This document shows positions 8,953 to 60,548 of a DNA stretch of 64,000 nt, piece by piece. The position numbers and the translations under genes were made by a program. This stretch comes from Clostridia bacterium. GTDB taxonomy: Bacteria; Bacillota; Clostridia; Acetivibrionales; DSM-27016. The notes under the pieces are model-generated. The model did not search any database and was not told where the DNA came from. It saw only the letters and a list, made by a program, of their open reading frames with translations. The number at the start of each line of letters is the position of its first letter. Within the stretch, counting starts at the first letter, position 1. Where the stretch lies: the NCBI GenBank assembly GCA_026414765.1, contig JAOAIJ010000042.1, forward strand, positions 124,001-188,000, given 5' to 3'.

Positions 8953-9009
8953 GCTATACCCCTTCCTTTCTATATTAAGATTAGACAATATTTATAAACG
9001 CTTATTTTG

Positions 9010-12000
9010 CTATATCAAACGCATAAATTCGCTTAATTTCTGCTCTGGATTATCAACAAAGCCTTTTAGTAAAATATGCATATTCTTCAACATCTGAGAA
9101 ATCTCCTTACTATCGAAGCAGCGTTTATAGTAAACCATATTTATGCATGTTCCTACATCCAGCGGAAGTATTTCCACCCTTAGAGGTTGGTCTGTCTGAG
9201 CCAGAGCACGGATGGAACCTGCACCGATTTGTGAAAACTTTTTAAAAGCAGCCGATAGCTGGGGAATCTGTTCGCTTACTGTATAGCTTTCAAACAGCAG
9301 GTTTTCTCTTGCTATTCCGCACCACTCATAGATTTTCCGTATCGGAGTATATTCATAGCTTATTACCTCCATTCCATTCCCTTGCAGTTCTTTCAGCCAG
9401 GGCAACAGGCCTGCTCCTAAATCGATCCGAACCCGTACAGGAAGGATATTAAAATGCTGCCCCACACTATCTTCTATACCTGCAAGCGCAGTACCACGTC
9501 CGGAAAAGACAGAACCGAAAACCACATCATTTTTGCCGCTCCTACGGGCTAACTGCAGTGCCCATGCTGCTTGCACCAAAGTATACATTGTTATATGCTG
9601 TTGCTTTGTAAAAACTGTAAGTCCTTCCATCAGTTCCTGCGGTATTACACTCCACTCAGCATGCATTACAGCTTCTTCATCAGTACTATGCCCGTTTATG
9701 ACCTGTACCAGGGGAGTCGGTACTGTAACGCCATCAAGGTTTTCCCTCCAGAATCTTTCAGCCTTAACCAAATCCTGCTGACGCTGCCATGCTATGAAGT
9801 TTCTGTATGAAGAAACCGGTTCGACTTCTATCTTTCTACCTTCACAATAAGCTTCGTAAAAGTCAAGCAGATTCCTCATTATAACGGGATAGCTCCACCC
9901 GTCCTGTACCATCAGATTTATAGCATGAATAAAATAGTATTCATCCTCATTTATTTTAATAAGAGATATGCGCGTTTGAGGTACAGGTCCATTTATTTTA
10001 AAATCCTCTTTGCGGAAGACATTCATATATGCTTCCAAATGCGTTTTCTGAATATCCAGGGGAATATGAGTCCAGTCTTCCTGCTCCATCCTTATGCTCA
10101 CATCCCTGAACACAACCTGCATAGGTTCATCCAACCCTTCCCATACAAACGATGTGCGTAGGACAGGATACTTCTTTACTATATTTTGCCATGCCTTTTC
10201 AAAAGCAGAGACATTAAACTCTTTTCCTTTTATAACATAAACCGTATCAACCATATAGAGGCCCGTATCATTGGCATTGAGTCTGCGGAAAAGCATATTC
10301 TCCTGTACTGCACTTAGAGGATATACATCCTCTATACCTTGTATTTCAGAAAGCATCCCGTTGATTCTTGCCCGATCATGCTCAGTCAGTTGAATTTCCA
10401 GCCTTTTCCCATGTAAAGTTAAATTGGAGTCTGTTGGGTTTATCTGTTTATCATCTTCAATCAAACACATATTTATGATTTCTGCCAGACCGGCTATGGT
10501 CTGGTGCTGGAAAATTTGTTGCGGAGTAAGCTCAATGCCCTTCTGTTTAGCTCTGGCCACTACCTGTATGCTTTGAATGGAGTTTGCACCTAATTCAAAA
10601 AAATTGTTCTTTATACCGACACGTTCCAGGCCTAATACATCTGCCCAAATTTCAGCAAGGATTTTTTCTGTTTGTGTTACGGGCTCAACATAGTCCTCTT
10701 CCATATCGGGTATTTCCAACAACGGTGCAGGAAACGCCTTCCTGTCCAGCTTCCCGTTCGAATCCACCGGCATTTCCTTGAGAACCATAAAGGCAGAAGG
10801 TATCATATAATCCGGAAGTTTCTCCTTTAGATAACTTCGCAGCTGCGGTATCAATGTCCGGGTAATCCTATCCAGCAAGGGATTGTTTGCATAGCATTCC
10901 AGCTGTTTACCGGCAGGTGCGCTGAAAGGGTGTATTGCAATTGTCATATCATCTTCATTATCTCCGGATATCTGTTTGCGCCTTAAAATCACCTGAAGCC
11001 TGCCGTCATTACACCCGTTTGCCCAGGCAATGCTGGCATTATACTGCAGCTCACAGCATAGATCCCATAATTCCTCCGGATCTACCCCTGTATCATCCTT
11101 ACAGCTGTTTATAATCTGTCTCAGTTCACCTACGCTCTCAGGGCATCTGGTGTCAGAGAGCAGTTTTAAGCACCTGTTGATAGATCCAAGCCTCTTATTT
11201 GGAACATTAGTAATACCGAGTATATCCGTTCGGCTGCTTACCAAGGTTTGACGAAGCCGATCCAAATCCAACATTTCATTTTGCCAGTCCAGCCATGGAA
11301 AATCCATGACATGCTGCACTTTTTTACCGATATGAAGTATGACATCATAGCGGTATATGCTCATCTCATTAAGGTGACAGCCGCGTTTTATCTGGAATTC
11401 CACGTGACTGATTTGAGGTGTTTCACTTTGAAGTGCCAAAAAGAATTCAGGATCAATAACCAGCTCATTCTCCTGATGCATGCGCTTTTGGGTACGATGC
11501 CTCAGTTGTTTGATTGTCAGCGAATCCTGAGCCTTCGCGAGCTCTACGTCAGTATGGAATGCCTCCAGCAGGGGCAGACTTCGTATATCACCAATAAATA
11601 TATATCCGGTATGGGCTATCAATTCTGCTGCATTTCTAATTACCCCGGACAGATACTCAATTCCCGGGAAATACTGAACTACCGAGTTCATGACAACAAC
11701 ATCAAATTTTTTGCCCTCAAGCCCGGAAAAATCATCAGCATTTTTCCTCAGTAATTTTACATGAGATAAATCCCCTCTCCGTTCTAACAAATGATCAGTG
11801 ACATAATCGACGGCTGCCGCAGAAATATCTGTTCCCCAGTATTGCTCACAGCTTGGAGCAATCCGGGACAGCAGAAGCCCTGTACCACATCCGATTTCCA
11901 GTACATTCCGCGGCTTTAGTGCGAGGATACGTTCAACTGTAGAATCTACCCATTCACGCATCTCCTCCATGGACAAGGGAAGTCCGGTGTAGCTGCTGTT

Positions 12001-15000
12001 CCAGCTAGATATATTGAAGCCTTCATCCTTTTGATGTTCGCTTGTATCATATGCCTCGTCAAACACCTTTTCCCATTCTGAAACCTGTACATAAGGCAGT
12101 TCCTCGCCAGTTAAGCCTTCAACCTCTTCCTGCACGTGCAAAGCAGGATTCACATATGCTACCAGTTGTTTTTGCCCCGGTATATATTCGTTATCCCTCG
12201 CCAGAACTACTGCTTTCTGGACAGTAGGGTACTGTTCGAGAACAGCTTCAATCTCAGGCAATTCTATCCTAAATCCGCGCACCTTTACTTGAAAATCAAT
12301 TCTACCGAGAAATTCAATATTGCCATCTGGCATATAACGTGCCAAATCTCCGGTTCTATAGAGCCGCGTCCCTTGTTCAGTACTGAAAAGATTCGGAATG
12401 AATCTCTCATCTGTCAGCTCCTGACGTCTGTAATAGCCACGAGCCAGCTGAACACCACCGATATGCAACTCACCAGGCACTCCGACAGGTACAGGGTTTA
12501 AATACTTATCAAGCAGATATATCTGTGTGTTCGCTACCGGGCGGCCGATTGGAACTGTCCTCAGACCGTCTTTCTGGCTGCAGGCCCAGAAAGTAACATC
12601 AATCGCCGCTTCTGTCGGGCCATAGAGATTGTGCAGTTCTGCGTGAAGCCGTTCAAAAAAGTATTCCTGAAGGGAAAGTGATAATGCCTCTCCACTGCAG
12701 ATAACCCTCTTTAATGAATTACAGCCTTCAATTTCCTTTTCTTCTAGAAATACCTGCAGCATGGAAGGCACAAAATGAACAGTAGTAATATTTTCACTTT
12801 TAATAAGCCTGGCTAGATAAGCCGGATCCTTATGGCCTTCCGGCTTGGCTAAAACCATACAGGCACCTGTAGCCAACGGCCAGAAAAACTCCCATACCGA
12901 TACATCAAAACTAAATGGAGTCTTCTGTAAAATCCGGTCACTCGTATCAAGCTGATATTGCTGCTGCATCCACAAAAGCCGGTTTACAATACCCCTGTGC
13001 GTGTTCATGGCACCTTTGGGCTTGCCTGTGGAACCTGAAGTGTAAATCACATATGCAAGATTATTACTTACAGCCCCGCTAGCTGTACCTACTCTGCTCT
13101 CCTTACTGATAATATCCCAGTCAGAGTCCAGACATACAACTTTGGCTCCATGCTCAGGCAGATCAGCGTACAGATGCTTTTGGGTCAAAAGCAGCGGTAC
13201 TTGTGCATCAGCCATCATAAAAGCTAAACGCTCCCTCGGATATGCAGGGTCTAAAGGAACGTAGGCACCACCTGCTTTAAGAATGCCCAGCAGCCCTATC
13301 ACCATCTCTATGGACCGTTCCACAGAGATACCGACAAGAACTTCCGGCCCTACACCCATCCTGCGGAGATAATTTGCAAGCTGATTGGCCCGCTGGTCAA
13401 GCTCCTTATAAGTCAATTTCGTATTCTCAAAAATTACTGCCGGAAAGTCAGGTGTAAAAGCAGCCTGTGATTCAACCAGTTCGTGCAGGCAAAGATTCTG
13501 TTGAGGGTAATTTATAGCAGTATCATTCCAATCAAATAACAGCTTCTCTTTCTCTTTCTCAGATAAGATAGGAAGACCGGAAATCCTTTGTTCTGGGTTT
13601 GACACAATACCGGCAAGTAGTATTTCATAGCTTTCCAGCATCCGCATTATGGTAGATTCACTAAATATGTCTGAATTATATTCCACTTCACCATCCAGCA
13701 TATCGTCTTTTTCTACTAGCTGTATCCATAAATCAAACTTAGATGTATCATTTCGGATTTCTTCACCACCTTCATAAGCAATATCAAATTCATTTGTCGG
13801 TATCTGGAACTTTTGAAAGTTCTGCAGGACAAAACACACCTGAAAAAGTGGATTCTGACTCATATTACGCTCAGGCTGCAAGTCTTCCACCAATAACTCA
13901 AATGGCACATCCTGATGCATATAAGCCCCATTTGCAACTTCACGTACCCGTCCCAATAGCTCCAGAAAGCTTGGATCACCCGACAGGTTCGTTTTATACA
14001 CAAGTGTGTTGGCGAAAAAGCCGATCAAATTCTCAATTTCTGTCCTATTCCTGTTTGCTATGGGTGATCCCACTAATACCTCTTCTTGTCCGCTGTACCG
14101 ATGCAGCAGAATATTTAGTGCACCAAGCATAACCATATACAAAGTAGCATTTTGTTGCTCACTTAGTGATTTAAGCGATTTTGTAAGAGAAGTCGGCAGT
14201 CTGAACTTGAAATTGCCTCCCTTGAAAGTCTGTACAGGCGGTCGTGTATGATCCAAAGGTAGTTCAAATGCATTTTTTTCTCCTCCAAGCTTCTCCCGCC
14301 AGTAATCCAGCTGTGATTCAAGCACTTCGCCTTGCAGCCACTGCCGCTGCCATATTGAGAAATCAGCATACTGAATGGGAAGTTCGGGAAGAGGAGACTG
14401 CTCCCCTTTGGAAAAGGCTATATAGTGAGTGACTAACTCTTTAAAGAAAACACTCAATATGGACCAGCCATCAATTACTATATGATGTACATTTACTAGC
14501 AATATGTATTTCTGATTCCCCATATTAAACAAAGTAACACGCAAAAGAGGGCCTTGAGACAAACTAAATATATATTTTGCTTCCTCTTTGGCCAGTTGTC
14601 CAAATTCAGCCTCCCGCTCAGATTCGGGATATACAGTCATATCAATAACAGGAAGCTTCAATATCAACTCCGGCGAAATTACCTGGAAGGGCTGCCCGTT
14701 ATCACTCTCGAAAGTAGTCCTCAGAACCTCGTGCCGACGGACTATTTCATTGATGCTCTGTTCAAATATTTCCTCCCGTATGTTGCCCGATAAATGCAGC
14801 GCCATAACCACGTTATAGGCAGGGCTGTTTGGAACCAGCTGATCCAGGAACCATAGTCTTTGTTGTGCAAAGGAAAGCGGTATCCGTTCCTCCTGTTTAC
14901 GTTTTGGTATAGCTGCAGCATTGACCTTAACTTTTGAATGTTTCAGCTTTTCCAGAATCGCTAGTTTTTCCGGCGAAAGCATGGATTTACGTTCTGAAAA

Positions 15001-15018: not shown

Positions 15019-15048
15019 ATTTACTCCCCTTTTACTAAAATATTAATT

Positions 15049-15063
15049 TGACACCATGTGTCA
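15049..15063. repeat. Short inverted repeat in the PKS-NRPS intergenic gap
   Basis: TGACAC and GTGTCA separated by CAT, in the 78-bp gap before the NRPS start. It may be a small RNA hairpin between cistrons or chance; no promoter is evident next to it. Confidence 0.3.
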
Positions 15064-15096
15064 GTTGGATTTTATGACTAGACCTTGACACAATAA

Positions 15097-18000
15097 TCAT
15101 ATTGTAAGCTGCATTGCTGCATCCTCCGGAAGCTCTTCAAGCTTTTCTATGATCTCACGTTCAAGTAATTCTGCCATACCTGCAACTGTTGAAGCCGTAA
15201 AGAGCTCTTTCAAGCTTAGTTCAAAGGGATAGCTCTCCCTTAACCTGGAGATCACCCTGGTAGCCATAATAGAGTCTCCGCCCAACTCCTGAAAATTATC
15301 ATAGATTCCGACCTTTTCAATGCCAAGCACCTCCTTCCAGATTTCCACAATAGTATTTTCAAAATCATTACGCACTCCATCATTATTTTCACCGGTATGA
15401 GCTACGACCTGGTCTTGCAATGTTTCTGCCGGTGAAAGGTCTTTTATCTTATATGGTGCCGCTATGTCATCTGCCTCTTTGCCCGTTTGAGCTACCCAAT
15501 ACCTCTTTGGGCTAAAAGGATAGGTAGGAAGCGGTATTTTGGAAAACCGCTCATTTGAAAACAGCTTTTCAAACTCTAGTGAATATCCCTGTGTATACAG
15601 GCTTGCAATAGTAGACAGGTATTCCAGATATTCGTCAGCAGAATCCGTATTCAGGCAGTTTTGAATGCATTCATTTCCAAACCTTTTCATGAACGCCTGC
15701 TCTTTATTAGCGCTTTCCACAGGTTCTGATAAATAAACCTGTGAAGGCTTATCTCTTCTCAACCATTTCTTTAGGAGCATACCCAGCTCATCCCAGCTCC
15801 TGGCCACACATGCCAGCCTGTAAGCAAAGTGTTTTCTTCCCAGAAGAAGAGTATAGCTCACATTCCCACAGTCTATCCTGGTTTCCTTCTCACAATACTC
15901 AATCAGCTGTCCGGCCTGTCTCTGAAGCTGCTCAAGAGAACGTGCGGATAAAACTATCAGATAACCGGGTTTTTCTGAATGCTTAGACTCTATAGCCGGA
16001 GCTTCTTCAATAACCATATGTGCATTGGTCCCACTGAAGCCAAAAGAACTGACAGCTGCACATCGTTTGGTAGCAGGCATTACCTCCCAATCCTTGAGAT
16101 GTGTATTAATATAGAATGGGCTGCCCTCAAATCGGATATTAGAATTAACCGATTCAAAGTGAAGTGATGCAGGAATCTGTCTATGCTTTAGTGACAACAG
16201 GATTTTTATCACTCCGGCAACTCCTGCAGCAGTAGCAGTATGACCCAGATTAGTCTTGATTGATCCTATCGCACAGTATTCCTTTTTGTCTGTATCTTTC
16301 CGGAAAGCTCTGGCCAATGCTCCAAACTCGATTGGATCACCCAGTTTTGTGCCTGTACCATGAGCTTCAACCATCTGGATATCTCCGGCACTAATATTAA
16401 AGGCATCATATACATAGCGTTCCAAGCTTTCCTGAGAATTGGCACTAGGTGCCGTAATTCCATTAGTAGTCCCATCCTGGTTAATTCCCGAACCCCGGAT
16501 AACTCCGTAAATATGGTCACCATCCTCAATGGCATCCTTAAGCCGTTTCAGAACAACTACTCCGACACCCTCGCCAGGGACAAAGCCGTCTGCCTTCTGA
16601 TCAAACGTACGGCATCTCCCCGAGGGTGACATCATTTCTGCCCGGTTTCCTGCTATATAGTATTCGGGTGTACACTGTATGAATACCCCGCCGCCTAGTG
16701 CCATTTCCGTTTCGCCTGTCCAAAGCCCCTGACAGGCCAGATGAATTGCAACCAAAGAACTTGAGCACGCAGTATTGACTGATATTGCAGGTCCTCGAAG
16801 GTTTAGGTAGTAGGCTATGCGGGCAGGAATAACGGAGCTGTTGTTGCCCCACATTGCTTGCGCCGGGGCATCATTGCCAAACAGCCTGTTATAGTCTCCA
16901 TCTCCGCACCCAACATAAACTCCGCATATACATCCCTCGACACCTGCTCCTGCATATCCGGCGTCCTCCAATGCCTTCCATGACTCCTCAAGAAAAAGCC
17001 TCTGCTGTGGATCCATATAGGTAGCTTCTAGTCCGGAAATATTAAAAAAGGAAGAATCAAACTTTTCAATACTCTCTAAAAAACTACCGTATTTGCAGAA
17101 TTTTTCATTATCCGTGTGATATTGTGAAAGGTTCCATCTTGTAACCTCTTCAACCAGGTCGACGCCATTTGCAAGATTCTCCCACAAGTCATTTACCGTC
17201 TTTGATCCTGCAAACCGTCCACTCATACCAATAATAGCAATTGGCTCTTTTGAACCCGCACCTTCTGTACACTCCTGTTTCTTTCCGGTTTCATCCCCTT
17301 CCAAAAGTTCCTTTCTTCTAAGAATTCTCTTGGTTTTTGGGTAAACGATATCACTCTCTTGCACATCTGAGCTGGAACTGTTGTCTAAATCCATACATTT
17401 CGCATTCTTTTCCAGCCCTTTGACAAGTATATCTTTATATTGCGAAAGAATATGTGCTGTCAGTTGGTTTACAGAGCTGTAACTAAAAAGGCTTGTAGTT
17501 TCCAGGTCGATCATCAGCGCCTGGTTAATAAGCTGAACCAACTGAACTCCGGTAATGGAATCCAAACCATAGTCAGCGAAGGATTCATCAAAGTCTATGG
17601 CCTTGGCATTTACTTTTAATGCTTCCGATAATTTTTCTATAATTAATTCTTTAACATGATCCTGGACAATTTTCTCAGTTATGCCGGCATCCCCTTGTTT
17701 TTTTACTCTTTTCTCTGCTGACTGCTGCTGTATCTTCCTGAAGCACTCTTCCGATGCCTTCTCTTCACCAGATCCCAACCAGTCCGTTTCCTGCTTACTT
17801 GTCTTATAAGCCGGTTGCACATGGGGTTTTGATTGCTGTCTTTTGCGGATTATCCCGTTGCTTTGGGCGACAATAATCTGCTGTCCCAGCTTATGCGCCT
17901 CACTTGCCGGAAAAATAACCGGACTCAATCCTTCACTCTCCAGTACCGCTTTCCACGCATCAGGAAATAATCCGGGACAGCCCGGGATACGCAATGAAGT

Positions 18001-21000
18001 ATCTTCATATAGCCACCAACCCTCCAGCAGTCCAAATGTCAGGTGGGTACACAAGTTGTTACTGCTTATTTCGTTTAGCAAAAGCAGCCCGTTTTTACAT
18101 AAAGTTTCCTTAACATTGCGTAAAGTTTTGCGGATATTTTTTGTTGCATGCAACACATTGGTGGCAATTACAATGTCATACATTCCTGCTCCGATATCCT
18201 GTACCATTATCGGTACCTCTGCGTCAAATATCTTATAAACCAAATATGGTACCTTAGGACCATACTCCCTTTCTGCATGCATTAAAAATGCTTTGGATAA
18301 GTCTGAATAGCAATATTCATGTACATGATCCCGGTATGGCTCAAGCCTTTTGAAAACCATAGCACTGGTTCCCCCTGTACCTGCACCGATTTCAAGTATG
18401 CGGATCCGTACAGACGGCTCCTGCTTTATCCGTTCCTGGATATAGTAAACTAGGGTGTCGGCAAGCACTTTGTTAAAATAATCTGCAATCGAATTGTTTT
18501 TATAAATTCCTTCAACCAATTCCATAGATGAGCAGGGAAACATTATCTCTGTAGCGGCTGTTTTTCCTGTAAGTATTTCCGGCAAAACCCTCAGTGTTTC
18601 ATTTACCAGGACTACATAGGCCTTAATATCCGGATTATTGACCCAAAGGCTCTTTTTTCGCTCCCATTCTTTCCATAAATCATTTATGTCTTCCAGGTCT
18701 GTATCAACAACGGAATACTCCTTTCCATCATAAGCAAGATAATTATTTCTCAGCAAAACCGCTGTACTTTCTTCAAGCCACCTGCTATAAAAGCCTTTCA
18801 ACCCTGTTTTCACTTTATAGTCCGGTAATGATTGAGATTTCATAGTAAAAATGCCGATAGACTGAAGCTGTCTTAATAACAAACGACAAAGAAGATCATC
18901 AATCTCCTCTACCAGCCTGATTTGCTCAGAGTTCTGCTTTATAATATGCTGCGGGTGCTCCGGCACTGTAATGCAGGACGGAAGCTCCTGGTCTGAATCC
19001 GGACAAAGCTGTTTTGACAGCAGCTCCTTGTACTCTGATATCAATCGTTTTGCCAGTCCATGAAGGCTGTCGCATTCAAAAACCATTCCAGGCATCAAAT
19101 CAAACTTGAATTTCAGATTGAGTATGTTTACGAATTCTGTGAGAGTCGCCGGTTTAAAGCCATATTCATTTAATCCGGTTGAGGCGTCAATAGCTTGAAC
19201 ATTGACTCCTAATACCTCAGCCGCCGCATTAATGATAACTTCCTCCAATTTGGCAATAAGTCTGTCAGTATTGTTTCCGATTGTAGAGCAGGCTGCACTA
19301 TCCGATTTCGAGATATCCGAGCTATGAGCCTGGTTTTCAAGCATAACGGAAGGAATTTTTTCAGGTATGAAGGAAACCAGTTCTTCAGTACTTACTTCTT
19401 CCATAACCAGGGGTTTAGTTGTTTTTATCAGAGAAATCTGATTTATAGGCCCATCCAGCAAAAACTCCAATGCTTCCATAGCTTCAGGAGGCTCGATTGA
19501 ACCTATACCTGCCTGTGCCATTCTCTGCTGATAATCGATGGAAGCAACACTCCCTGTACTACCCCAGTAACCCCAGTTCATTACTTTAACTGCACATTTC
19601 CATTCTGTAGCGAGTTGATGGGCAAAAGTATCAGCAAATGTACAGCCTGAAGCATAATTGCTTTGTCCTGCAGCTTTTGAGAAAGACTGCAGAGAGGAAA
19701 AAAACATAACAAAATCCAGTGATTCCCGTTGAAAAACCTGTGCCATACAGATGCTCACGTTGGCTTTAGCCGAAAATACGTTTTCAAACTGTTCTTCTTC
19801 CATATTTGCCAGGCTTTGATCCGATAACACCAGCGCAGAGTGAATGACTCCATTTATCTTGGTATATTTTTTCTTGATCTCTAAATAAGCCTGCTCAAGA
19901 GAATCGCGGTTTGCTGCATCTGCTGAAATATAGACAGGTGCAATTCCCTGGGTAGCAAGTCTGTCTATTTTTGATTGGATCACTTCATCCTTTTCCCGCC
20001 TGCCTATCCAAACTATACGGACTTTGTAGGTTCTGACCATATATTCACTCCAGGCTTCACCAATACCACCCGCTCCTCCTATTACGACATATACGCCTCC
20101 GGCCTTGTACGACTTCCCGGCACAAGACTGGGGGTCTACAGGTATTAATTTCTGTCCGTACCATTCAAATCTTCTATAAGCTGCAAAATTCCCTCTTGAA
20201 TTTGCAGACAATGAAAAAATATCAGCGGCAGGCCATTCGCAACCGGATTCCAGATCAACAGCCCGTATCTTCCAGCCTGGATACTCTTTTGCCAAAGAGC
20301 CAATCAGCCCGTGGAGGCTTGCGTGGGCAGGATTTACTATGTCATTTCCCGTAACAGGCTGGGCTTGAGCAGTAATTATACTCCAACCCAGATCCTTTTT
20401 ACCATAGCCTGAGCGCAGCAAGGCTTTTATTAGCCTGAATGCCCGGATAACCTCACTTCCCTGTTCTATGGCGACTGCATTTCCTGCCTGAGAAGCAAAA
20501 CTGCTGTCTCGAGCAATCCAGATTATATGATCTACAGGTCCGAGACTCTCTAATTTTTCCTCAATTTCCCCAATAGTATCTTCTGATTGAATCTCCATTG
20601 ACATTACTTCAGGGTAGTACCCCTGTATGCACTCTTTGTTCTCTTCATTCCCTCCAACAATGACGATTTTTGAACCCGGTTTTGGGAAATCTCCTTTTTT
20701 CTCTATCTGAATAACATCCCATACCGGAGTCAGGATATTAACCTCCGTATGCAGTTCTCCGGAGGTTTCACTCTGATATGGGTTTGTCACGCCATCTTCC
20801 TGAACTTTTTTTTCAAATACCCTTGATGAGAATCCCTTCATTCTAATGCACAAATATCCCATATCGTTATATACATCAATATCAAGTTTTTCTACCTTTC
20901 CCCCTGCCACGCTTCCTTCACTGTACTGTACATGAGCCCACATAGTGGAAGTGCATTTATCAAAGGTTTCAAGTTCTTGCAGGGCAAATGGCAGTACAGG

Positions 21001-25266: not shown

Positions 25267-25309
25267 AATTTCACCCCTGATTTACAAATATTTATTACCC
25301 TCACAATTT

Positions 25310-50716: not shown

Positions 50717-50750
50717 TGTCAATTCACCTCGATTTTTTAATCTCTGGAGT

Positions 50751-53700
50751 CTACTCTTCATCAGCTGTATAGCTTTGCTTCCATATGCTGTTCGTACTGT
50801 GCAAGCTTTTTAGTGCCCGCTCCTGTTCTTTGACATTAGTCGTTGTATTATTTATGTCTCCGACCATAACCGCATGTTTTCCGCCTTTGGAATTCTCACC
50901 GGTACAGTCTTTTCCGTTTTCCGGCCTAAATGCTTCCTCAGTTTGATAAACCATATATTTTTCCAATACCGGAGAAGGTATCGGATGGCGTACCACTCTT
51001 TGCAATTCAGTATTTGCCCATGCCTCTAAAATCACGTGGGCATTGGTGCCTCCATCTGCAAAAGAGCTTACTGCTGCAATCCTTGCAGCATCTGACCATG
51101 TAGAAAGATCACGTGAAAAATCAATGAAGGAAACGTCAAATTCATAATTCTTCATAGGCCGCTTTCCAGATAAGAATGGAAACTTCTGACCGTGGTACAG
51201 CATAAGTACGACTTTTATGAAACCTGCAATACCTTCAGCACACAGGAGGTGCCCGATGTTAGGTTTGACGGATCCTACTCCCAGGGAAGTACTGCTTGAA
51301 GAGCGGTAAACGGCTTGAATCGCCTTAAGTTCCAATAAATCCGTAACCTCTGATCCCGAGCCGTTTGCTTCGATATAGCCAACTTCTTCAGGCCTTCTCC
51401 GGCTTTTAGTCAAAGCAGCCATCATAACATCCTTTTGAGCTTGAATATTTGGAGTTGCAGGACCTGCGGTCCGTCCATCGTTGTTTACAGCCGCAGCTTT
51501 TATTATGGCATAGATATGATCTCCATCAGCAACGGCCTGCTCTACTGTTTTTAGCAAAACCATTCCTACACCCTCACCCAATACTACCCCTGAAACCCGC
51601 TGATCAAAAATGTGAAATACCGGCTCCCTGCTTAAAATTTTTCTCTGTTCAAAAATCCTATGGAATTCATCTGTGGTTAAAAGGCTTATTCCACCAACAA
51701 TTGCACATTCTATTTCTCCGCAGCACAAGGCTTGTGCAGCTATATTTATTCCAACTAAAGCTGATGAGCAGGCAGTATCCAGAACAATGCTCGGACCACG
51801 AAGGTCAAAGAAATGTGAGATATTAGCTGCCAGGTAGTTTTTCCCTACGCCAACAATAGGATTCCGGGCCTTTCGCAGGCTGAGCCTGTCCGGCTGGTGC
51901 TGACTCCGGGCTCCAAGGTAGACCCCTACCGGTTTTCCCTTGATTTCTTTATGTGAATATCCTGCATTATGCCAGAGCCTGAGACTTTCTTCCAGCACCA
52001 TCAGTGCTTGGGGGTCCATAACCCTTGCATCTTCATCATGGATGAGAAAAAAAGACGGATCAAAGTGCGTGATATTGTCAAGCATTCCCGCATGGAAATT
52101 GCTTAAGTGACCCCAGCGCTCCAAAGGCACAGGACGGATCACGGTCCGGCCTTCCCGGAGCAGCTTCAGATATTCCTCCACTGTGCCTGCACCCGGGAAA
52201 CGGCATGACATACCAATAACCGCAATATCCTGCATGCCGGTCTTAATTTTCAGCTTTCCTGCCTCTACATCCTTCCGTACTTCTTTTGATGCTGATTGTC
52301 CTGCACGCTGATAGTCCTGCTTTTCAATAGTATCTTGCCTGACGGGTAAGATATCCAGAGTTTTTGCCAGGATATGGGCATGTTTGCACGAAAGCCATTG
52401 TGCAAATGCCTCAATAGTCGGATATTCATATAATATCGAAGGATCTATTTCCTCCCCAACCATTTGCTTAATCGGAGGCAATAGTTGGGCAAGCATAATA
52501 GAATCTACTCCATAGTCCTGAAAAGGTGTATCTGCATCTAGTCTGTGGGAATCGACCTTCAATTCCCGGGCAAACAAACCGGTTAACCAGTTTTTTATTG
52601 CACCGGTAAGGTCATCTGATATTTTGGGTGTTTTAGCGGAATGGAGAGTATACAACCGGGTGCCTGCTGGAATATCTTCATGGATTTTGCGGTTCATCAG
52701 TAGGTGAGGTTTCCACAAATCCGGGTTTATCACCGCTGGCAAGATTACAGGACCTAATTCATTTGACAGGACGCTGTCGAGCAGCTGCAATCCCTCTTTA
52801 TCAGTCATACTCAGCAGACCTGTATACATATAGGCTTTACTTTTCACCTCTCCCATACCGGTCTCTTTCCAGCTGGGCCATTGAATACTGACAACAGGGC
52901 AACTAAAAGCATTTGCTTCTGCAAAATAATCCATATATGCATTTGCCATGGCATAGTCACTTTGCCCTGATGCTAAGGTGGGAATAACTGCCGATACTGA
53001 TGAAAACAGTGCAAAAAACTGTAAAGGTTCATCTTTAAAGCATTGAAGTATTACGTCCAGTGCAGTAGTTTTAGGCTCCAATACCTGCTTAACCCTGTCA
53101 ACAGATTTTCTTATGAACGCCGGGTTTTCAAAGTCACCAATGCCTGCACAATGAATAATTCCCCCGACCGGTCCCATGGTCTGCCTGATTCCCTGCAAGC
53201 TCTGCTGCAAAGCAATTTTGTCTGCCAGCGACACCTGCAGTATCTGCACCTGCACTCCTTGCTCTTCTAACTTTTGTATGGACTCTATTTTTTGTGAAAG
53301 CGGAGTATCCTTCTCCCTGTAAAATCCCCACTGCTCCCGAGGAGGCAATTCTTCCCGCCCTGTGAGTACCAGGCGCTTCACTCCGTAATACTCAACAAAA
53401 TGCTTGGCACACAGATACCCTATTCCCCGTGTCCCGCCGGTGATCCATAAAACGTAATCCTTACTAAAGGCAAATCTGCTTTTCTTATCAGCTCTCAACT
53501 GAATTTCATTCAGAAAAGCCCGGTATCTTTTTTCTCTCCGGTAACAAATCTCTATATCCTCACTATCCGCAAAATATTCAAAAGCAATATGGCGCGCAAG
53601 AATCTTGTTATCCGCACACGGATCTGCATCCATATGCCGTGTCCGCAAGTGGCTGTATTCACTTTGCAGCATGCGGTACAATCCTGCACGGGATGCACCG

Positions 53701-56700
53701 GATAAATTGATGCCAGTATTCTGATAGGATTCAAGTCCCTTTGTTACACATAGCAGAGTCACTTTTTCTTTACGGCCGTGTTCAATCAACTGCTGCAGCC
53801 ATAAAATCCACGTTTCGTCCTCACTACCATCCTTTCCGCAACCGGTCAGATCAATACAGCCGTCATATTTCTTCCACTCATATTCCTTGTTTTGCAGCTT
53901 TTTATCAGGTTCAAATATTTCCAGAATTTCGATTTCCGGAAAGTATTCAGAAAGTTCACCTGCAAGTTCCATAGTTTCTTTTGTTGCTATAATAGCAACA
54001 CATGAATCCACTTCTCTGCTTTGACCCGCTTCACTCAGCTCCCAGCGCTTTTTCAGAAAGCACATTTTTCTCCCGGAAAAGCTGTCTTCGGCAATGTTCC
54101 TGCCAGGTACACCCATATCAACCCTGGGCTTCCAGCATAGTTCCCTGGCAAATGGATATGCAGGCAGGCTTATACGGCAAGGCTTCGTTTTCCCATATAG
54201 CTTGTCCCAATCAAAATCCAGACCTTTTACCCAAAGTTCGAGTAGCTTGGCGTATTTGCCTTTCTTTATCCAAGCATCAATAATACCTTCCATATCTTCA
54301 TCCGCTTCAAAAACAGACAAAGAATCCTTATTGCGTTTTACCTGTCCTCTGAATAACCCCTCTATAGCTCCTTTTCCCCCAGCAAAGCTCTTAAGCTTTT
54401 CTTCCAGTTCTTTAACGGATAGAGCAGTAACGGCCATGCGTTCCTCCATGGCTTCACGCCCCACCTGCAGGGTGTAAGCCATATCTGCAAGACTATTGTC
54501 TGAAAACTGCTGCCTGACGATAGCATCCGACAATCTCTCTGCCTGCTCTTTCAGTTTCTCTTCATTTTTTGCCGATAATACGATAATCGCAGGATTTTGA
54601 GTGTTTATAACAATCTTTGGCTGCTCCGGAACAGCAGGAATATATTCTTCAACCACTATATGAGCATTTGCCCCACCTGCACCAAAACTGCTTATCCCGG
54701 CACGCCTTGGCACCTCATTCCCGCCGATCACCGGCTTTTTCCATTCTTCAATTTCCTGCTGAACTACAAAAGGTGTATTAATGAAATCAATATTGGGATT
54801 GAGTATCTCAGAATGCAGTGACGGCACCAGCTGACGGTACTTGAGCTGCAATAGGACTTTTGTCAGTCCTGCAATACCTGCAGCACTTTCACAATGCCCT
54901 ATATTTGACTTAGCTGATCCTATTGTGCAAAACTGCTTATCCCTTGTATATTTCTGAAAGGCTTTGGTCAGACCCGCAATTTCAATCGGATCACCTAGTG
55001 AAGTCCCTGTTCCGTGCGCTTCGATATAGCTTATGCTCCTCGGGCTTATACCTGCTTCTTTAAAAGCCCGGCCAATAACTTCAGCCTGGGCATTAGGATT
55101 CGGAACGGTGTATCCGTTTGTTTTCCCACCATGATTTATTGCAGTTCCCTTTATTATTCCATATATGTGATCTCCATCCTTAACAGCTTTTGAGAGCGGT
55201 TTTATCAGCACCGCACCGACACCTTCCCCGGGAACGTATCCGTCACCTCCCTGCCCGAAACTTTCACATCTTCCTTTGCTCGATACAAATCGGTTTTGTG
55301 AAAGAAACAGATACTTATTTGGGTGTACAGATACATTGACACCTCCAGCAATTGCAATTTCACATTCGTTCCGCTGTATACTCTGACAAGCCAGATGTAT
55401 GGCCGTCAGTGAGGATGAACACATGGTATCTACAGCCATACTCGGTCCGTGAAAATTGAAAAAATATGATACGCGGTTGGCGATGGATGCCGGAATACCC
55501 CAATAAGCTGCCGGTCTTCCCTGTAGCATTTCCTGAGCCCCGTATAATTGATACTCTTCATACATCACTCCTACAAAAACTCCTGTATTCCGGCTCTTAC
55601 CCATATCGCCGTTCTTACCCCGTACTTCCCGTGTGTACCCCGCATCTTCGAAAGTCTCAAATGCGCATTCCAGAAACAAGCGCTCCTGTGGATCCATGTA
55701 TTCCGCTTCTCTTGGAGAAATATTGAAAAATAATGGATCAAAACGATCAATACCTTTGAGAAAGCCTCCCCACTTACTGTAAGTTTTTCCGGGCTTGCTC
55801 CTGTCTTCATCGTAGTATAGCCTGTAGTCCCAACGGTTTTTAGGGATTTCCGTGATACAATCCCTACCTTCTTTTAAGTTTTGCCAGAATTCAAAAATGC
55901 TTTCAGCCCCGGGGTAACGACCTGCAAGTCCTATAATGGCGATTTCCCCGTTATCCGCCGTTTTCTTATCTTGCAGTATATTTTGTATTGCCGCAAAACG
56001 ATGTCTTTTATAGCTTTTTAGTGTCATATCCGGTTTTTCAGTTCTATCATATGAATCATTGCAGTTTTCATCTGTCGTCAATATTTTTTTCTCATTTTCC
56101 AGCAGTTCTGTCAGCTTATCTGCATAATTTTCGAGAAAATATCCTGTTAATTCCTTAATGTTTTGATACTCAAAAAACAATGTTTTAGGTAAAGAGCCAA
56201 ATATTATCTCCAGCTGGTTGGTCAATTGCATAATCATAATGGAATCAATTCCATATCTCTCCATAGGTGCATTTACTTCAATGCGGTCGTCCGGAAGCTT
56301 GATGACTGAAGATATTATCCTTTTTAAATATTTTTCTGCTTTCTCACATAGTGAATCGTGCCGGATTACAGGGTTTGGCCTATTTATCTGCATAACTGAA
56401 AGAGCTGTCGTTCCTTCAGGATTGCCCGGTTTTTCCATAAATCTTTCTCTAAGCCTTTTAGAATCCCCTTCAATTACCAGTATCTGATCCTCTCCCGAAG
56501 CCAGTCCCTGGTAAAAAGCATGTATCCCTGTGGATGTACTCATAGCTGAAGCCCTCATGTTTTGCCACATCATCCCTACAGATTCCTCAGCTACCTTCAT
56601 CCCGCCATCTTTCCATAAAGGCCAGTTTATTGACAATGTCCGGCCCTGACGTTCTTTTACGGCAACCAGATTATTCCTATAGACCGCATACGCATCCATA

Positions 56701-59700
56701 AATGCATTGGCAGCAGAGTAATCAGCCTGGCCTAAATTACCCAAACTGCCTGAAACAGATGAAAACAAAACAAAGAAATCAAGCTTCAAATCTTTACTTG
56801 CCTGATCAAGGTTAACAAGTCCCGTAACCTTCGGCATTAATACATTCTGCAATTCGTCTTTTGTCTTTTTTAGGATTAGGTTGTCCTGGATGATACCTGC
56901 ACTATGAATAATGCCATCCAGGCTTCCGTATTTTTCACATATGCTCCTGATCAAGTTTGCAACCGGCTTCTTGCCGGCTACGTCTACTTCCCGATATTCT
57001 ACCACTGTACCCATATCCTGTAATTCTTTCAACAAGGATTGCTTATGTGCATCTAATCCAGACCTGCCAGTAAGAACTAAAACAACATCTTTTGCTTTGC
57101 TTAGGATCTCTTTAGCAAAAATCAAGCCAAGACCGCCTGTACCGCCTGTAATAAGGTAAACCCCTCTGTTTTTCCAGGGGATGTCTGAGTCTTCAAAAAG
57201 TTCAACCTCACTCCATCCTGCAACAAAACGTTTTCCCCCTATATATCTGATCTGATCATCAGCAGGACACCGGCTGTTATCCTTCAATTTTTCCGCAACT
57301 CCTTTTAGAGTCTCACCAGGTTCAAGTTCAATAAGCTGACATATGATATTGGGGTTTTCTATATGAGCAGTTCTTAATATTCCGGAAAGTCCTGAAAGAA
57401 GCTTTTTTTCATTGTCGGCTGCAATAACTGTTTGAATCAGAATCCTACCCTTAGGCTTCTCTTCAAACCTGCTCCGAATTTCTTCAAATAATTGAACTGC
57501 ATAAGCTTGAAACCTGCCGTCAATTTCCCGTTTTTTCGAATATAGAGTGATGCAGCGGGCTCCATCCAACTCTGTCTCAATGCTTTGATATACAGTTTTA
57601 TCCGGCTCGCATATTATTACAACATGCTCGTCATATACTGGCTCTGCAGCTCCTTCGCAAACATTTTGTTCTTTCCAGCACGGTTTTAGTATAAGCCTTG
57701 TATCAGGAGTAATAGATTTTTTTCCTCCCGTCTCATTCCCCAAAGCCTTTAAGGATAATCCCCTCATACGTACACACACATTTCCTGCTTCACTGCATAA
57801 ATCCAAATCAACTTTTCGCAGCTTGTCTCCCATTCTGAAGTCATTACCATATCGAACCAAAACCCACATAACCGAAGTACAGCTGCTTATAATCTCAAGC
57901 TCGTCAAGTGCAAATGGTACGAATGGCCTGTCAGGCATATCTGCATTTTCACAAGCAAGTTCTGCTGCTAAAACCACTGCTGCCTGTAGGCTTGAATCCA
58001 TCAAACTCGGATGCAAAACATATTTAGCTGCAGTATGAGCCAGAAAATCCGGTAGAGAAAGTTTTGCAAGGAGCTGTTCTTCTCCCTTATACACTTTTTC
58101 AATCCCCCGGTGCCCCGGACCGTAATCGATACCCATACCTTTAAAAGCCTTGTAGCATTCAGCAGCAGATAGGCTTTTCAGCTTGCATTGCTGCTTGATA
58201 GTTGGTAAATCCAAGGTTTCAACTTCTACCATTCTATCTAAAACAGCTATGCCCTGACTGTTCACTACAGGTTCCATATCTGTTCCGTCTATATTGCTGT
58301 AGATTTCAAAAGCTGCTTGCTCCGCACTTTCGGGAAATAGCCCGACATGGACTCGAACCGGCTGAGCCCCGACTGCTATAGGTTTTACCCATATTACATT
58401 TTTAAGCCTGACTCTTACCCCGCTGTTTTTCAAATATCCCGCAGCCTGACTCAGTGCTGCTTGTACCATCTCCAGGTATGCTACACCGGGAAGCAAACGT
58501 TGGTTATTAACAATATGGTCTGATAAAAAAAATTCTTGTCCTGTAAAGGTTGAACTAAACCGCTGCTCTGAAAAATCGGAGGTGTTTTGATGCAGCATAG
58601 GGTGTATTAAAGCTGCAGCAGCATGGTTTTGTGTTATAGAATCCTTGTATGCGGCGTTATTCGCTATCCAGTAGCGTTCACCGACAAATGGATATACCGG
58701 AAGGTTGATTCTTCTTATTGTATGATTTGAATAAAGCTCTTCCCAGCTCAACTCATGTCCCTCTGTATACATTTCTGCCAAGGCCGTTAGCTTGTCACCA
58801 TACTCCTGCTCATTCTTAATGCTGTTATAAGACAGCTCTTTCATGATAGTTTTGCCCAACTCTCTAAGGATAGCCTTTAAGTTTTCCCTGTTTGTTTGAC
58901 TGTTTGTTTTGGAAAGCTCTTTGGGTTCTTCATTGCTTAGGCTTTTTTTAAGTTTTTCCTGAAGCTCTTCGATATCCTTCACGACAAAAGCACTTCTCAT
59001 TTCAAAATGTTCCCTGAACAAAAGCAGATTCGCGCTGATATCAATAAGACTGTTTTCTTGTCCGTGCTTCTTTAGCCAAGCTGCAAGTTCCTCTTCTTTT
59101 TTACGTAGTGATTCTTCTGTCCTGGCAGATAAGCAGATCAAATAGGAGGGTAATTTTTCAGATGTATGCCTGATAGCAGCAGGCGCCTCTTCAAGTATGA
59201 CATGTGCATTTGTTCCCCCAAAACCAAAAGAACTGACTCCTGCACGTCTGGGAATTGTCCGGTTGTCCTCTCCTCTCAAAGCTTTCCATACCTGAGGCTT
59301 GTCCACTATATAAAAAGGACTGTCATCCAACAGAATCCGGTGGTTTAGCTTTTTATAATTCTGCAATCCGGGCAACTGTTTATGCTTCATCGAAAGCAAA
59401 ACTTTGATAACTCCTGCAATGCCTGCTGCTGATTCCAGATGCCCAATATTGGTTTTCACCGACCCGAGGCCACAATAGTTTTTTCTTGCCGGCTGTCCTT
59501 CTTTTGAAGGAAATGACCCGAATGCCTTTACAAGCCCCGCAAATTCAATAGGATCACCTTTGGGAGTGCCTGTACCATGAGCTTCTATGTAGCTGATACT
59601 GTCAGGTTCTATTCCTGCACGCCTGCAGGCATCAACAATCACTGCTGCCTGTGCATCCGGATTGGGGTAGGTTAAAGTATGAGTCCTGCCATTGTGGTTA

Positions 59701-60548
59701 ACTGCACTTCCCTTAATAACACCATAAATAAGGTCTCCATCCGCTACCGCCTTCTTCAATGGTTTGAGCAGAATCAAGCCTGCACCTTCGCTGCGGACGT
59801 AACCGTCTGCACTATCATCAAAGGTCTTACAGGAACCTGTAGGAGACAACATTCCAGTTTTTGAAAAGGAAATATGTCTAGTAGGAGTCAATAAAAGACT
59901 TACACCCCCTGCAAGGGCCATACTGCATTCTCCAAGGTATAAGGACTGAATTGCTGAATGAATAGCATTCAGCGAACTTGAACACGCAGCATCTATAGGA
60001 AAACTCGGCCCATTAAAATTAAAATAGTGGGAAATCCGGTTGGAAATCACTGCAGAAGCGGTTCCTGTAGAATGATAAGCTTCAATGGAGCTAAATACTT
60101 TTTCCTGTAATTCTTTATAATCATGATTGAACACCCCAATAAAAACGCCTACTTTAGAGCCGGATATGTCAGACGGACAAACGCCTGCATCTTCCAGACA
60201 GTTCCAGGAAAGCTCCAGCATGATTCTTTGCTGCGGGTCCATGACTTCAGCCTGTCTGGCAGAGATATTAAAAAAAGCTGCTTCAAAGGCATCTGCATTT
60301 TCTATAAAACCTCCCCACTTGCTGTTGGTTTTATTCTCCCCGGTTTTGGGATCCCCCCAATATGCTCTCCAGTCCCACCGTTCCAATGGAATCTCCTGGA
60401 TACATGACTTTGAGTTGTTCAGATTTTCCCAAAACTCTCTATAGTTTTCAGCCCCCGGAAACCTGCATGCCATACCGATGACAGCTATGTCCATACTATT
60501 TCCATCTTCCTGTTTTCCTTCGAAAGGTTGAGGTTTTTTGTCTTTCAT
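50751..60548 (-). CDS. Trans-AT PKS protein 1: KS1-DH-KR-ACP-KS2-KR-ACP-KS3(KS0)
   Basis: A 3265-residue protein, first in transcription order. Approximate layout: KS1 (19-450, DAACSSS with Cys189, EAHGTGT, NIGHLE); DH (645-935, HIVNNQRLLP, with Asn for the usual Gly of HxxxGxxxxP); KR (1000-1330, GGTGGLG); ACP (Ser near 1437); KS2 (1535-1965, DTMCSSS); KR without DH (2130-2560, GGTRGIG); ACP (near 2682); KS3 (2772-3175, DTACSSA). KS3 has EANGSGS where EAHGTGT is expected, so the first catalytic histidine is missing; it should pass the chain on without extending it (KS0). About 90 polar residues follow, probably a docking tail. There is no loading domain, no AT and no starter ACP. The ATG follows GAAAGGAGATC. 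Homologous modules recur in protein 3. Confidence 0.93.
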   Translation of the reverse strand: MKDKKPQPFEGKQEDGNSMDIAVIGMACRFPGAENYREFWENLNNSKSCIQEIPLERWDWRAYWGDPKTGENKTNSKWGGFIENADAFEAAFFNISARQAEVMDPQQRIMLELSWNCLEDAGVCPSDISGSKVGVFIGVFNHDYKELQEKVFSSIEAYHSTGTASAVISNRISHYFNFNGPSFPIDAACSSSLNAIHSAIQSLYLGECSMALAGGVSLLLTPTRHISFSKTGMLSPTGSCKTFDDSADGYVRSEGAGLILLKPLKKAVADGDLIYGVIKGSAVNHNGRTHTLTYPNPDAQAAVIVDACRRAGIEPDSISYIEAHGTGTPKGDPIEFAGLVKAFGSFPSKEGQPARKNYCGLGSVKTNIGHLESAAGIAGVIKVLLSMKHKQLPGLQNYKKLNHRILLDDSPFYIVDKPQVWKALRGEDNRTIPRRAGVSSFGFGGTNAHVILEEAPAAIRHTSEKLPSYLICLSARTEESLRKKEEELAAWLKKHGQENSLIDISANLLLFREHFEMRSAFVVKDIEELQEKLKKSLSNEEPKELSKTNSQTNRENLKAILRELGKTIMKELSYNSIKNEQEYGDKLTALAEMYTEGHELSWEELYSNHTIRRINLPVYPFVGERYWIANNAAYKDSITQNHAAAALIHPMLHQNTSDFSEQRFSSTFTGQEFFLSDHIVNNQRLLPGVAYLEMVQAALSQAAGYLKNSGVRVRLKNVIWVKPIAVGAQPVRVHVGLFPESAEQAAFEIYSNIDGTDMEPVVNSQGIAVLDRMVEVETLDLPTIKQQCKLKSLSAAECYKAFKGMGIDYGPGHRGIEKVYKGEEQLLAKLSLPDFLAHTAAKYVLHPSLMDSSLQAAVVLAAELACENADMPDRPFVPFALDELEIISSCTSVMWVLVRYGNDFRMGDKLRKVDLDLCSEAGNVCVRMRGLSLKALGNETGGKKSITPDTRLILKPCWKEQNVCEGAAEPVYDEHVVIICEPDKTVYQSIETELDGARCITLYSKKREIDGRFQAYAVQLFEEIRSRFEEKPKGRILIQTVIAADNEKKLLSGLSGILRTAHIENPNIICQLIELEPGETLKGVAEKLKDNSRCPADDQIRYIGGKRFVAGWSEVELFEDSDIPWKNRGVYLITGGTGGLGLIFAKEILSKAKDVVLVLTGRSGLDAHKQSLLKELQDMGTVVEYREVDVAGKKPVANLIRSICEKYGSLDGIIHSAGIIQDNLILKKTKDELQNVLMPKVTGLVNLDQASKDLKLDFFVLFSSVSGSLGNLGQADYSAANAFMDAYAVYRNNLVAVKERQGRTLSINWPLWKDGGMKVAEESVGMMWQNMRASAMSTSTGIHAFYQGLASGEDQILVIEGDSKRLRERFMEKPGNPEGTTALSVMQINRPNPVIRHDSLCEKAEKYLKRIISSVIKLPDDRIEVNAPMERYGIDSIMIMQLTNQLEIIFGSLPKTLFFEYQNIKELTGYFLENYADKLTELLENEKKILTTDENCNDSYDRTEKPDMTLKSYKRHRFAAIQNILQDKKTADNGEIAIIGLAGRYPGAESIFEFWQNLKEGRDCITEIPKNRWDYRLYYDEDRSKPGKTYSKWGGFLKGIDRFDPLFFNISPREAEYMDPQERLFLECAFETFEDAGYTREVRGKNGDMGKSRNTGVFVGVMYEEYQLYGAQEMLQGRPAAYWGIPASIANRVSYFFNFHGPSMAVDTMCSSSLTAIHLACQSIQRNECEIAIAGGVNVSVHPNKYLFLSQNRFVSSKGRCESFGQGGDGYVPGEGVGAVLIKPLSKAVKDGDHIYGIIKGTAINHGGKTNGYTVPNPNAQAEVIGRAFKEAGISPRSISYIEAHGTGTSLGDPIEIAGLTKAFQKYTRDKQFCTIGSAKSNIGHCESAAGIAGLTKVLLQLKYRQLVPSLHSEILNPNIDFINTPFVVQQEIEEWKKPVIGGNEVPRRAGISSFGAGGANAHIVVEEYIPAVPEQPKIVINTQNPAIIVLSAKNEEKLKEQAERLSDAIVRQQFSDNSLADMAYTLQVGREAMEERMAVTALSVKELEEKLKSFAGGKGAIEGLFRGQVKRNKDSLSVFEADEDMEGIIDAWIKKGKYAKLLELWVKGLDFDWDKLYGKTKPCRISLPAYPFARELCWKPRVDMGVPGRNIAEDSFSGRKMCFLKKRWELSEAGQSREVDSCVAIIATKETMELAGELSEYFPEIEILEIFEPDKKLQNKEYEWKKYDGCIDLTGCGKDGSEDETWILWLQQLIEHGRKEKVTLLCVTKGLESYQNTGINLSGASRAGLYRMLQSEYSHLRTRHMDADPCADNKILARHIAFEYFADSEDIEICYRREKRYRAFLNEIQLRADKKSRFAFSKDYVLWITGGTRGIGYLCAKHFVEYYGVKRLVLTGREELPPREQWGFYREKDTPLSQKIESIQKLEEQGVQVQILQVSLADKIALQQSLQGIRQTMGPVGGIIHCAGIGDFENPAFIRKSVDRVKQVLEPKTTALDVILQCFKDEPLQFFALFSSVSAVIPTLASGQSDYAMANAYMDYFAEANAFSCPVVSIQWPSWKETGMGEVKSKAYMYTGLLSMTDKEGLQLLDSVLSNELGPVILPAVINPDLWKPHLLMNRKIHEDIPAGTRLYTLHSAKTPKISDDLTGAIKNWLTGLFARELKVDSHRLDADTPFQDYGVDSIMLAQLLPPIKQMVGEEIDPSILYEYPTIEAFAQWLSCKHAHILAKTLDILPVRQDTIEKQDYQRAGQSASKEVRKDVEAGKLKIKTGMQDIAVIGMSCRFPGAGTVEEYLKLLREGRTVIRPVPLERWGHLSNFHAGMLDNITHFDPSFFLIHDEDARVMDPQALMVLEESLRLWHNAGYSHKEIKGKPVGVYLGARSQHQPDRLSLRKARNPIVGVGKNYLAANISHFFDLRGPSIVLDTACSSALVGINIAAQALCCGEIECAIVGGISLLTTDEFHRIFEQRKILSREPVFHIFDQRVSGVVLGEGVGMVLLKTVEQAVADGDHIYAIIKAAAVNNDGRTAGPATPNIQAQKDVMMAALTKSRRRPEEVGYIEANGSGSEVTDLLELKAIQAVYRSSSSTSLGVGSVKPNIGHLLCAEGIAGFIKVVLMLYHGQKFPFLSGKRPMKNYEFDVSFIDFSRDLSTWSDAARIAAVSSFADGGTNAHVILEAWANTELQRVVRHPIPSPVLEKYMVYQTEEAFRPENGKDCTGENSKGGKHAVMVGDINNTTTNVKEQERALKSLHSTNSIWKQSYTADEE

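Follow-up and report, generated by a model that had tools for sequence, protein, structure and literature searches.

The window analysed here is a whole 64-kb stretch of DNA, positions 124001-188000 of contig 42 of a Clostridia genome (G000:C42; 4.56 Mb in 53 contigs). Five megasynthase genes occupy its minus strand from 60548 to 9010, neighbours abutting or overlapping, and are followed by a gene for a fused acyltransferase and enoyl reductase (AT-ER) and then by an MFS transporter gene. A preliminary description had placed a large trans-AT PKS-NRPS at 9010-60548; the list of open reading frames (ORFs) returns exactly these limits, and the ORFs, the domain order and the separate AT-ER gene confirm the type of system. 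The genes are:

50751-60548, minus strand: PKS gene 1 (ORF, 3265 aa)
40211-50761, minus strand: PKS gene 2 (ORF, 3516 aa)
25310-40210, minus strand: PKS gene 3 (ORF, 4966 aa)
15097-25266, minus strand: PKS gene 4 (ORF, 3389 aa)
9010-15018, minus strand: NRPS gene (ORF, 2002 aa)
6619-8988, minus strand: trans-acting AT (8089-8958) fused to a PfaD-type trans-ER (6649-7968)
5109-6326, minus strand: MFS transporter (PF07690)
62388-62996, minus strand: TetR-type regulator (weak match, under the Pfam cut-off)

The AT-ER protein matches TIGR02814 and TIGR00128, both above cut-off. Judging by its position, the MFS transporter likely exports the product, and the TetR-type gene, which shares its flank with a small protein lacking any Pfam match, possibly regulates the cluster. 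On the other flank are nifH and two P-II-like nitrogenase regulator genes (judged by eye), with nitrogenase component genes on the same side outside the window; these nif genes and kinship with a Clostridia MAG suggest an anaerobic host. A 262-aa radical SAM protein encoded at 3258-4046 resembles the N-terminal half of NifB (score under the equivalog cut-off) and is adjoined by an ANTAR protein. For a nif-bearing relative of the Clostridia the genome is rich in PKSs, with 64 ketoacyl-synthase C-domain matches over 12 contigs, a count that probably includes fatty-acid synthases. Upstream of the PKS, a YcaO cyclodehydratase adjoins a radical SAM/SPASM protein (L036:7776-11122, about 195.8-199.1 kb of contig 42), and the pair is possibly a separate ribosomal peptide cluster.

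Domain order, active sites and the predicted polyketide chain

Domain order was read with models built from the window's own domain copies, and Pfam agrees on all five proteins; active-site residues were read from alignments. Neither Pfam nor the window-built models found an AT family in the five megasynthases: the modules are without an integrated AT, and the free AT resides in the AT-ER gene. All modules lie on the minus strand:

Module 1, PKS gene 1: KS 59187-60485, DH 57738-58607, KR 56607-57173, ACP 56124-56327
Module 2, PKS gene 1: KS 54645-55940, KR 52863-53450, ACP 52383-52577
Module 3, split: KS0 51024-52223 (EANGSG) in PKS gene 1; DH 49904-50677 and ACP in PKS gene 2
Module 4, PKS gene 2: KS-DH-KR-ACP
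Module 5, split: KS-DH-KR and pseudo-ACP 40382-40588 (Ser replaced) in PKS gene 2; C-methyltransferase (cMT) 39134-40114 and ACP in PKS gene 3
Module 6, PKS gene 3: KS, degenerate DH 35903-36757, KR, ACP
Module 7, PKS gene 3: KS-DH-KR-ACP
Module 8, split: KS-DH-KR in PKS gene 3; cMT 24043-25026 and ACP in PKS gene 4
Module 9, PKS gene 4: KS-DH-KR-pseudoACP-cMT-ACP
Module 10, PKS gene 4: KS 16003-17238, PCP 15157-15360

The cMT domains bear out, at the domain level, the methyl branches previously placed at modules 5, 8 and 9; the ACP-like stretch of module 9, like that of module 5, is without the Ser, and neither stretch featured in the preliminary description. In the module 1 DH, Asn replaces the Gly of HxxxGxxxxP, the variant that had been suspected, but KS2 still groups with KSs most of which have a DH in the preceding module. 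The KS of module 3 carries Asn in place of the first catalytic His, and published passages describe such KSs, e.g. BaeKS3 and OzmH-KS8, as non-elongating. In module 6 the DH has changed His to Asn and Pro to Ser in HxxxGxxxxP and His to Gln in HPxLxD, with the Asp kept. Judged by these residues it looks dead, so that the hydroxyl predicted at this module would be retained even though a DH is present. No KR and no cMT were found in module 10 with the domain models, which agrees with the unreduced ketone expected there.

A KS phylogeny, proposed with the preliminary description as a check, supports the chain in that KS clades track the upstream module. The 151 KSs in the FastTree tree were taken from the window and further lines of the same genome, from related genomes, from Brevibacillus fortis and from three plasmid-borne clusters, which we take from gene order and strain to be bacillaene, macrolactin and thiomarinol. 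The partner of KS1 is the KS at the head of the thiomarinol gene that follows the AT gene (support 0.998), presumably an acetate-primed KS. KS3 goes with bacillaene KS3 (0.996), KS4 with KSs behind the DH-ACP halves of split modules (1.0) and KS5 with bacillaene KS7/KS8 (0.958), while KS2 and KS8 are in the group mostly following DH modules (0.851). KS6 and KS10 cluster with KSs after methyltransferase modules, thiomarinol included and one clade member excepted (1.0), as does KS9 with post-methyltransferase KSs including bacillaene KS5 (1.0). KS7 joins two KSs after KR-only modules (1.0). With the 16 unlabelled KSs dropped, 99 of 135 carry the same upstream label as their nearest KS in a different cluster; 2000 shuffles, which ignore the relatedness of the KSs, gave 31.4 on average and at most 51. 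Agreement extends to seven of the nine labelled window KSs; the exceptions are KS7, whose mismatch is attributable to the degenerate module 6 DH, and KS10, whose nearest neighbour is without detected reductive domains.

Two other readings of this region were discarded. KS7 had seemed inactive because a motif search overlooked it, and its Cys, His and His are all present; conjugation running unbroken through module 6 conflicts with the degenerate DH and with the grouping of KS7 beside the KR-only examples.

Domain order, active sites and the KS tree together support a colinear line with an acetate start, and with it the double bonds proposed earlier at modules 1, 2/3, 4, 5, 7, 8 and 9. We infer that the trans-ER is idle, in which case the chain would be CH3-(CH=CH)3-CH=C(Me)-CH(OH)-CH2-CH=CH-CH=C(Me)-CH=C(Me)-CO-CH2-CO-.

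The NRPS module and its amino acid

The line ends in the NRPS gene, with the order C-A-nMT-PCP-Ct:

13534-14898, minus strand: C domain
12139-13503, minus strand: A domain (code DVWHISLID by alignment; tenth position Lys)
10879-11988, minus strand: methyltransferase (nMT) inside the A domain
10459-10668, minus strand: PCP
9019-10338, minus strand: Ct, a condensation-like C-terminus with NLMVQDG for HHxxxDG (proposed release/cyclisation domain)

The A-domain code is one that we take to specify serine. By phmmer the A domain runs to residue ~956, and its tail and the PCP resume at ~1390, behind the methyltransferase. A methyltransferase between A-domain core and tail is the arrangement of N-methylation. 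This position also led us to set aside methylation of the serine oxygen, although side-chain methylation is formally possible. Code and methyltransferase position therefore support the N-methylserine unit of the preliminary description, and the domains likewise predict its beta-ketoacyl aminoacyl thioester: the beta-ketoacyl chain would be condensed with serine, N-methylated and presented on the last PCP.

A terminal condensation-like domain and its clade

The HH-less condensation-like domain that ends the NRPS (Ct) had no place in the preliminary description. In an alignment through a profile built from nine Cts, the motif of the domain falls opposite HHIILDG in the C domain of McyB, and an AlphaFold model (mean pLDDT 82.7, pTM 0.84) matches condensation-domain structures. 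A His at either position of the catalytic pair is found in 0 of 10 Cts, compared with 138 and 135 of 143 other C domains. Conversely, Tyr1912 and Arg1947 (computed numbering) are present in all 10 Cts vs. 0% and 4%, respectively, of the other C domains.

Among 155 C domains the Cts form an exclusive clade (support 0.998) of 12 rows, equal to 11 distinct genes as SKW257 was counted twice, and to about nine independent lines given that three Brevibacillus Cts are 92-94% alike. Eight of the genes come from a scan of named genomes, in which the C-A-nMT-PCP-Ct order ending in an HH-less Ct occurs at 8 of 39 loci (Brevibacillus fortis, formosus and porteri, Peptococcaceae UBA5318, SKW257, Tengunoibacter, Thermosporothrix and Prauserella) and the cassette was undetected in 31; the window, contig 31 of the window genome and the actinobacterial genome G236 supply the rest. 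Tengunoibacter and Thermosporothrix are presumably Chloroflexota. Surveys covering three phyla (346, 398 and 400 genomes), scoring at most four candidates in most of them and examining the best-match loci, returned the HH-less type in G065, G236, G000 (twice), G1074 (probably UBA5318 again), G064 and G063. Six of 48 survey loci were terminal and HH-less, and the other 42 divided into 36 with HH, 5 without a readable motif and 1 with His-Leu. The His-Leu belongs to an internal C domain (L133) and shows that the second His by itself can also be lost outside Ct. Within the clade, the window Ct groups with SKW257, Brevibacillus and UBA5318 (0.999), and the contig 31 Ct with two actinobacterial, lajollamycin-type Cts (1.0; see below).

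The context of Ct is constant. In all 11 genes it sits behind an N-methylating module, and in 10 no more than 31 residues separate it from the end of the protein; in SKW257 it is not terminal, a further C-like stretch of 464 residues standing behind it. The A-domain code is DVWH[IV]SL[IV]D in 9 of 11 lines and D[VM]WSVGMVH in the lajollamycin-type pair, the tenth position is Lys in 11 of 11, and the last PKS module is without a KR in all nine lines where it is visible. The C-like stretch fused behind Ct in SKW257 is similar in size to a separate C-like gene in Brevibacillus fortis (L030:6679-8079 and L037:13228-14544). Contig 31 of the window genome (G000:C31:38001-54542, L033, with L032 downstream) holds a second PKS-NRPS, ending in KS-PCP and C-A(Ser)-nMT-PCP-Ct and followed by genes for a MATE exporter, an AT and electron-transfer flavoproteins; the line is cut off by the end of the contig.

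Published passages on known Dieckmann units describe R*, TE, KS and free cyclases. None of these types (R*, TE-like, KS, free cyclase) was detected in the NRPS or the flanking genes scanned, and Pfam and NCBIfam found no thioesterase or Dieckmann cyclase among the neighbouring window proteins scanned. Ct could nevertheless have a different role: it might dehydrate or gatekeep, turning N-methylserine into N-methyldehydroalanine, or be inert, with release by hydrolysis or by an enzyme from another part of the genome. The structural matches to Ct include, at rank 22, the dehydrating condensation domain AmbE-CmodAA (ordinary C domains match equally or better). With both His gone the domain could be inert, an alpha/beta hydrolase gene lies near the NRPS of UBA5318, and the scan covered the window and flanking genes, leaving room for a release enzyme elsewhere. 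The clade-specific Tyr1912 and Arg1947 and the identical preceding module in every gene instead argue for a selected function, and lajollamycin retains the serine oxygen in its beta-lactone. On balance, we regard a dehydrating or inert Ct as improbable. The UBA5318 cluster (L040:6867-11050) pairs its alpha/beta hydrolase with a UbiE-type methyltransferase, recalling the methyl-ester start (Art28/Art9) described in passages on aurantinin.

Probable lajollamycin-type lines and the proposed release of the chain

According to passages of PMC10831120, the laj cluster is similar to ozm, includes a nitric oxide synthase gene and ends in Laj9 (PKS), Laj10 (NRPS, 2004 aa), ATs and methoxymalonyl genes. 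No thioesterase appears in its printed table of 17 genes, the amino acid ascribed to Laj10 is Ser for lajollamycin B and Thr for lajollamycin C, and nitric oxide synthase clusters of this kind are reported there from Streptomyces, Saccharomonospora and Prauserella. Reference titles in the same paper name the product a spiro-beta-lactone-gamma-lactam, a ring that also appears in part of PMC11196959. In our data, a nitric oxide synthase gene shares the contig of the NRPS gene and lies ~60 kb (Prauserella, L070) and ~62 kb (G236) upstream of it, and the open frames of both loci are similar in size and order to Laj4-Laj11. The Prauserella locus also has 3HCDH, acyl-CoA dehydrogenase and HAD genes, the same kinds as the laj 3' genes, and the absence of a formyltransferase match on its cluster contig (C2) fits lajollamycin rather than oxazolomycin. 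Nitric oxide synthase, frame sizes and order and the Prauserella 3' genes lead us to take these two Cts as probably lajollamycin-type, an assignment by genomic context. The Tengunoibacter genome has a nitric oxide synthase too, on a different contig from its NRPS; none was found in G000. In Thermosporothrix, the NRPS with its HH-less Ct adjoins methoxymalonyl-type 3HCDH, acyl-CoA dehydrogenase and HAD genes on the other strand (L062:11470-14830), possibly a second laj/ozm-like case outside the actinomycetes.

N-methylserine gives the spiro carbon, the N-methyl and the lactone of the lajollamycin/oxazolomycin bicycle, which is formed by the serine alpha carbon and hydroxyl. A review passage, mainly about the oxazole, has three glycines enter oxazolomycin 'instead of serine' and gives serine no support as the source of the bicycle. 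The window's line closes with an unreduced PKS module and, behind it, an N-methylating NRPS module of the Ser/Thr type. Our best reading of the locus, to which we give an even chance of being right, is that Ct releases the chain as a spiro bicycle of the lajollamycin/oxazolomycin type. Without the condensation His pair, Ct would form no amide and would instead cyclise and release the chain. The serine alpha carbon would attack the beta-ketone to give a gamma-lactam with a tertiary hydroxyl, and the serine hydroxyl would attack the thioester to give a spiro beta-lactone. We favour this outcome because clade and context are the same, the code is of the Ser or Ser/Thr type throughout, and no other release enzyme was seen. 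The predicted product is C27H35NO5 (453.2515 Da; [M+H]+ 454.2588), with 2 H more for each position that the trans-ER might saturate.

The preliminary description had instead proposed a tetramic acid. Here the carbon between the two carbonyls would undergo Dieckmann closure, spontaneously or through Ct, to give a trienoyl N-methyl-5-hydroxymethyl tetramate. A beta-ketoamide without an alpha-methyl is more prone to such closure, and the window's beta-keto unit ahead of the NRPS is of this kind, while the last PKS module of the lajollamycin-type lines has a C-methyltransferase. Moreover, the window Ct shares only 25-26% identity with the two lajollamycin-type Cts, and NLMVQDG stands against SYLCLDG, so that the reaction may differ between subclades. 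In the epifadin passages, closure is credited to a condensation-like CT, as proposed for malonomycin. These four points (identity, motif, missing alpha-methyl, and the epifadin and malonomycin proposals) keep the tetramate a rival, albeit one that we consider rather unlikely. No beta-hydroxy amino acid is required for a tetramate, and hence the serine code in nine lines and the Ser/Thr type in the other two count for the beta-lactone; in addition, the Ct clade holds the lajollamycin-type lines, and the window genes scanned include no thioesterase-type or free Dieckmann cyclase. Mass cannot tell the two products apart, as bicycle and tetramate are isomers. The beta-ketoacyl-N-methylserine chain of the earlier proposal is supported, while its ring is not established, the sole release candidate seen being an HH-less Ct. 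Comparison with known clusters brings in a Ct clade that includes NRPSs of the lajollamycin type, the type whose published product is a spiro-beta-lactone-gamma-lactam. Searches for the proposed precedents gave no further sequence: the epifadin plasmid was absent from the best 60 and best 50 plasmid matches of two KS queries, and for the malonomycin CT a search through 392 genomes from G236's genus, by way of the VKGC lumenal family, led to one genome, without PKS or NRPS domains in the 74 kb retrieved. In the titles, abstract openings and passages surveyed from the open-access literature we found no publication crediting ring closure to this terminal domain.

More broadly, and with slightly less than even confidence, we suggest from sequence and context that the HH-less Cts may be a dedicated family of release cyclases, converting beta-ketoacyl-N-methylserine or -threonine into spiro-beta-lactone-gamma-lactams and spread well beyond the actinomycetes. 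The clade is found in Firmicutes, Tengunoibacter, Thermosporothrix and actinomycetes, with the same context throughout. If the suggestion is correct, the window genome has two such lines, and bacteria of an anaerobic lineage would make covalent warheads of the oxazolomycin type. Ct would also be a sequence marker for mining anaerobes for reactive beta-lactones, or for N-methylserine tetramates should Dieckmann closure prove right.

Comparison with known systems

Fungal tetramates of the equisetin type combine a polyketide with N-methylserine, as the window does. They differ in their fungal PKS-NRPS, which according to passages on them carries a reductase-like Dieckmann domain at its end, a release domain unrelated to Ct. 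Epifadin (efi, Staphylococcus epidermidis), compared here through passages of its published description, is also a Firmicute trans-AT polyene whose NRPS module ends in a condensation-like domain; it differs in its peptide start, in Asp instead of N-methylserine and in its assigned tetramate.

Brevibacillus fortis, formosus and porteri share the terminal cassette, have NLMLQDG and show 44-45% identity to the window Ct. B. fortis differs by an internal NRPS module and extra genes for an Asn synthase-like protein, a free C-like protein and a P450. The locus contigs of B. formosus and B. porteri carry a region that, according to a published passage, antiSMASH names aurantinin, and passages of the aurantinin papers describe polyketide chains. 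We rejected these relatives as proof of a known product, the antiSMASH name being loose.

With respect to laj and ozm, the window cluster is without methoxymalonyl genes (none among the flanking proteins scanned), nitric oxide synthase, tandem AT, last-unit alpha-methyl and internal NRPS module, and its host is kin to Clostridia and not an actinomycete. Of these laj/ozm features, the methoxymalonyl genes and the last-unit methyl are perhaps dispensable for the ring. In common are the trans-AT PKS, a last PKS module without a detected KR and polyene parts. With the lajollamycin-type lines of Prauserella and G236 the window shares a C-A-nMT-PCP-Ct NRPS of ~2000 aa that carries an HH-less Ct of one clade, and the printed laj table has no thioesterase either.
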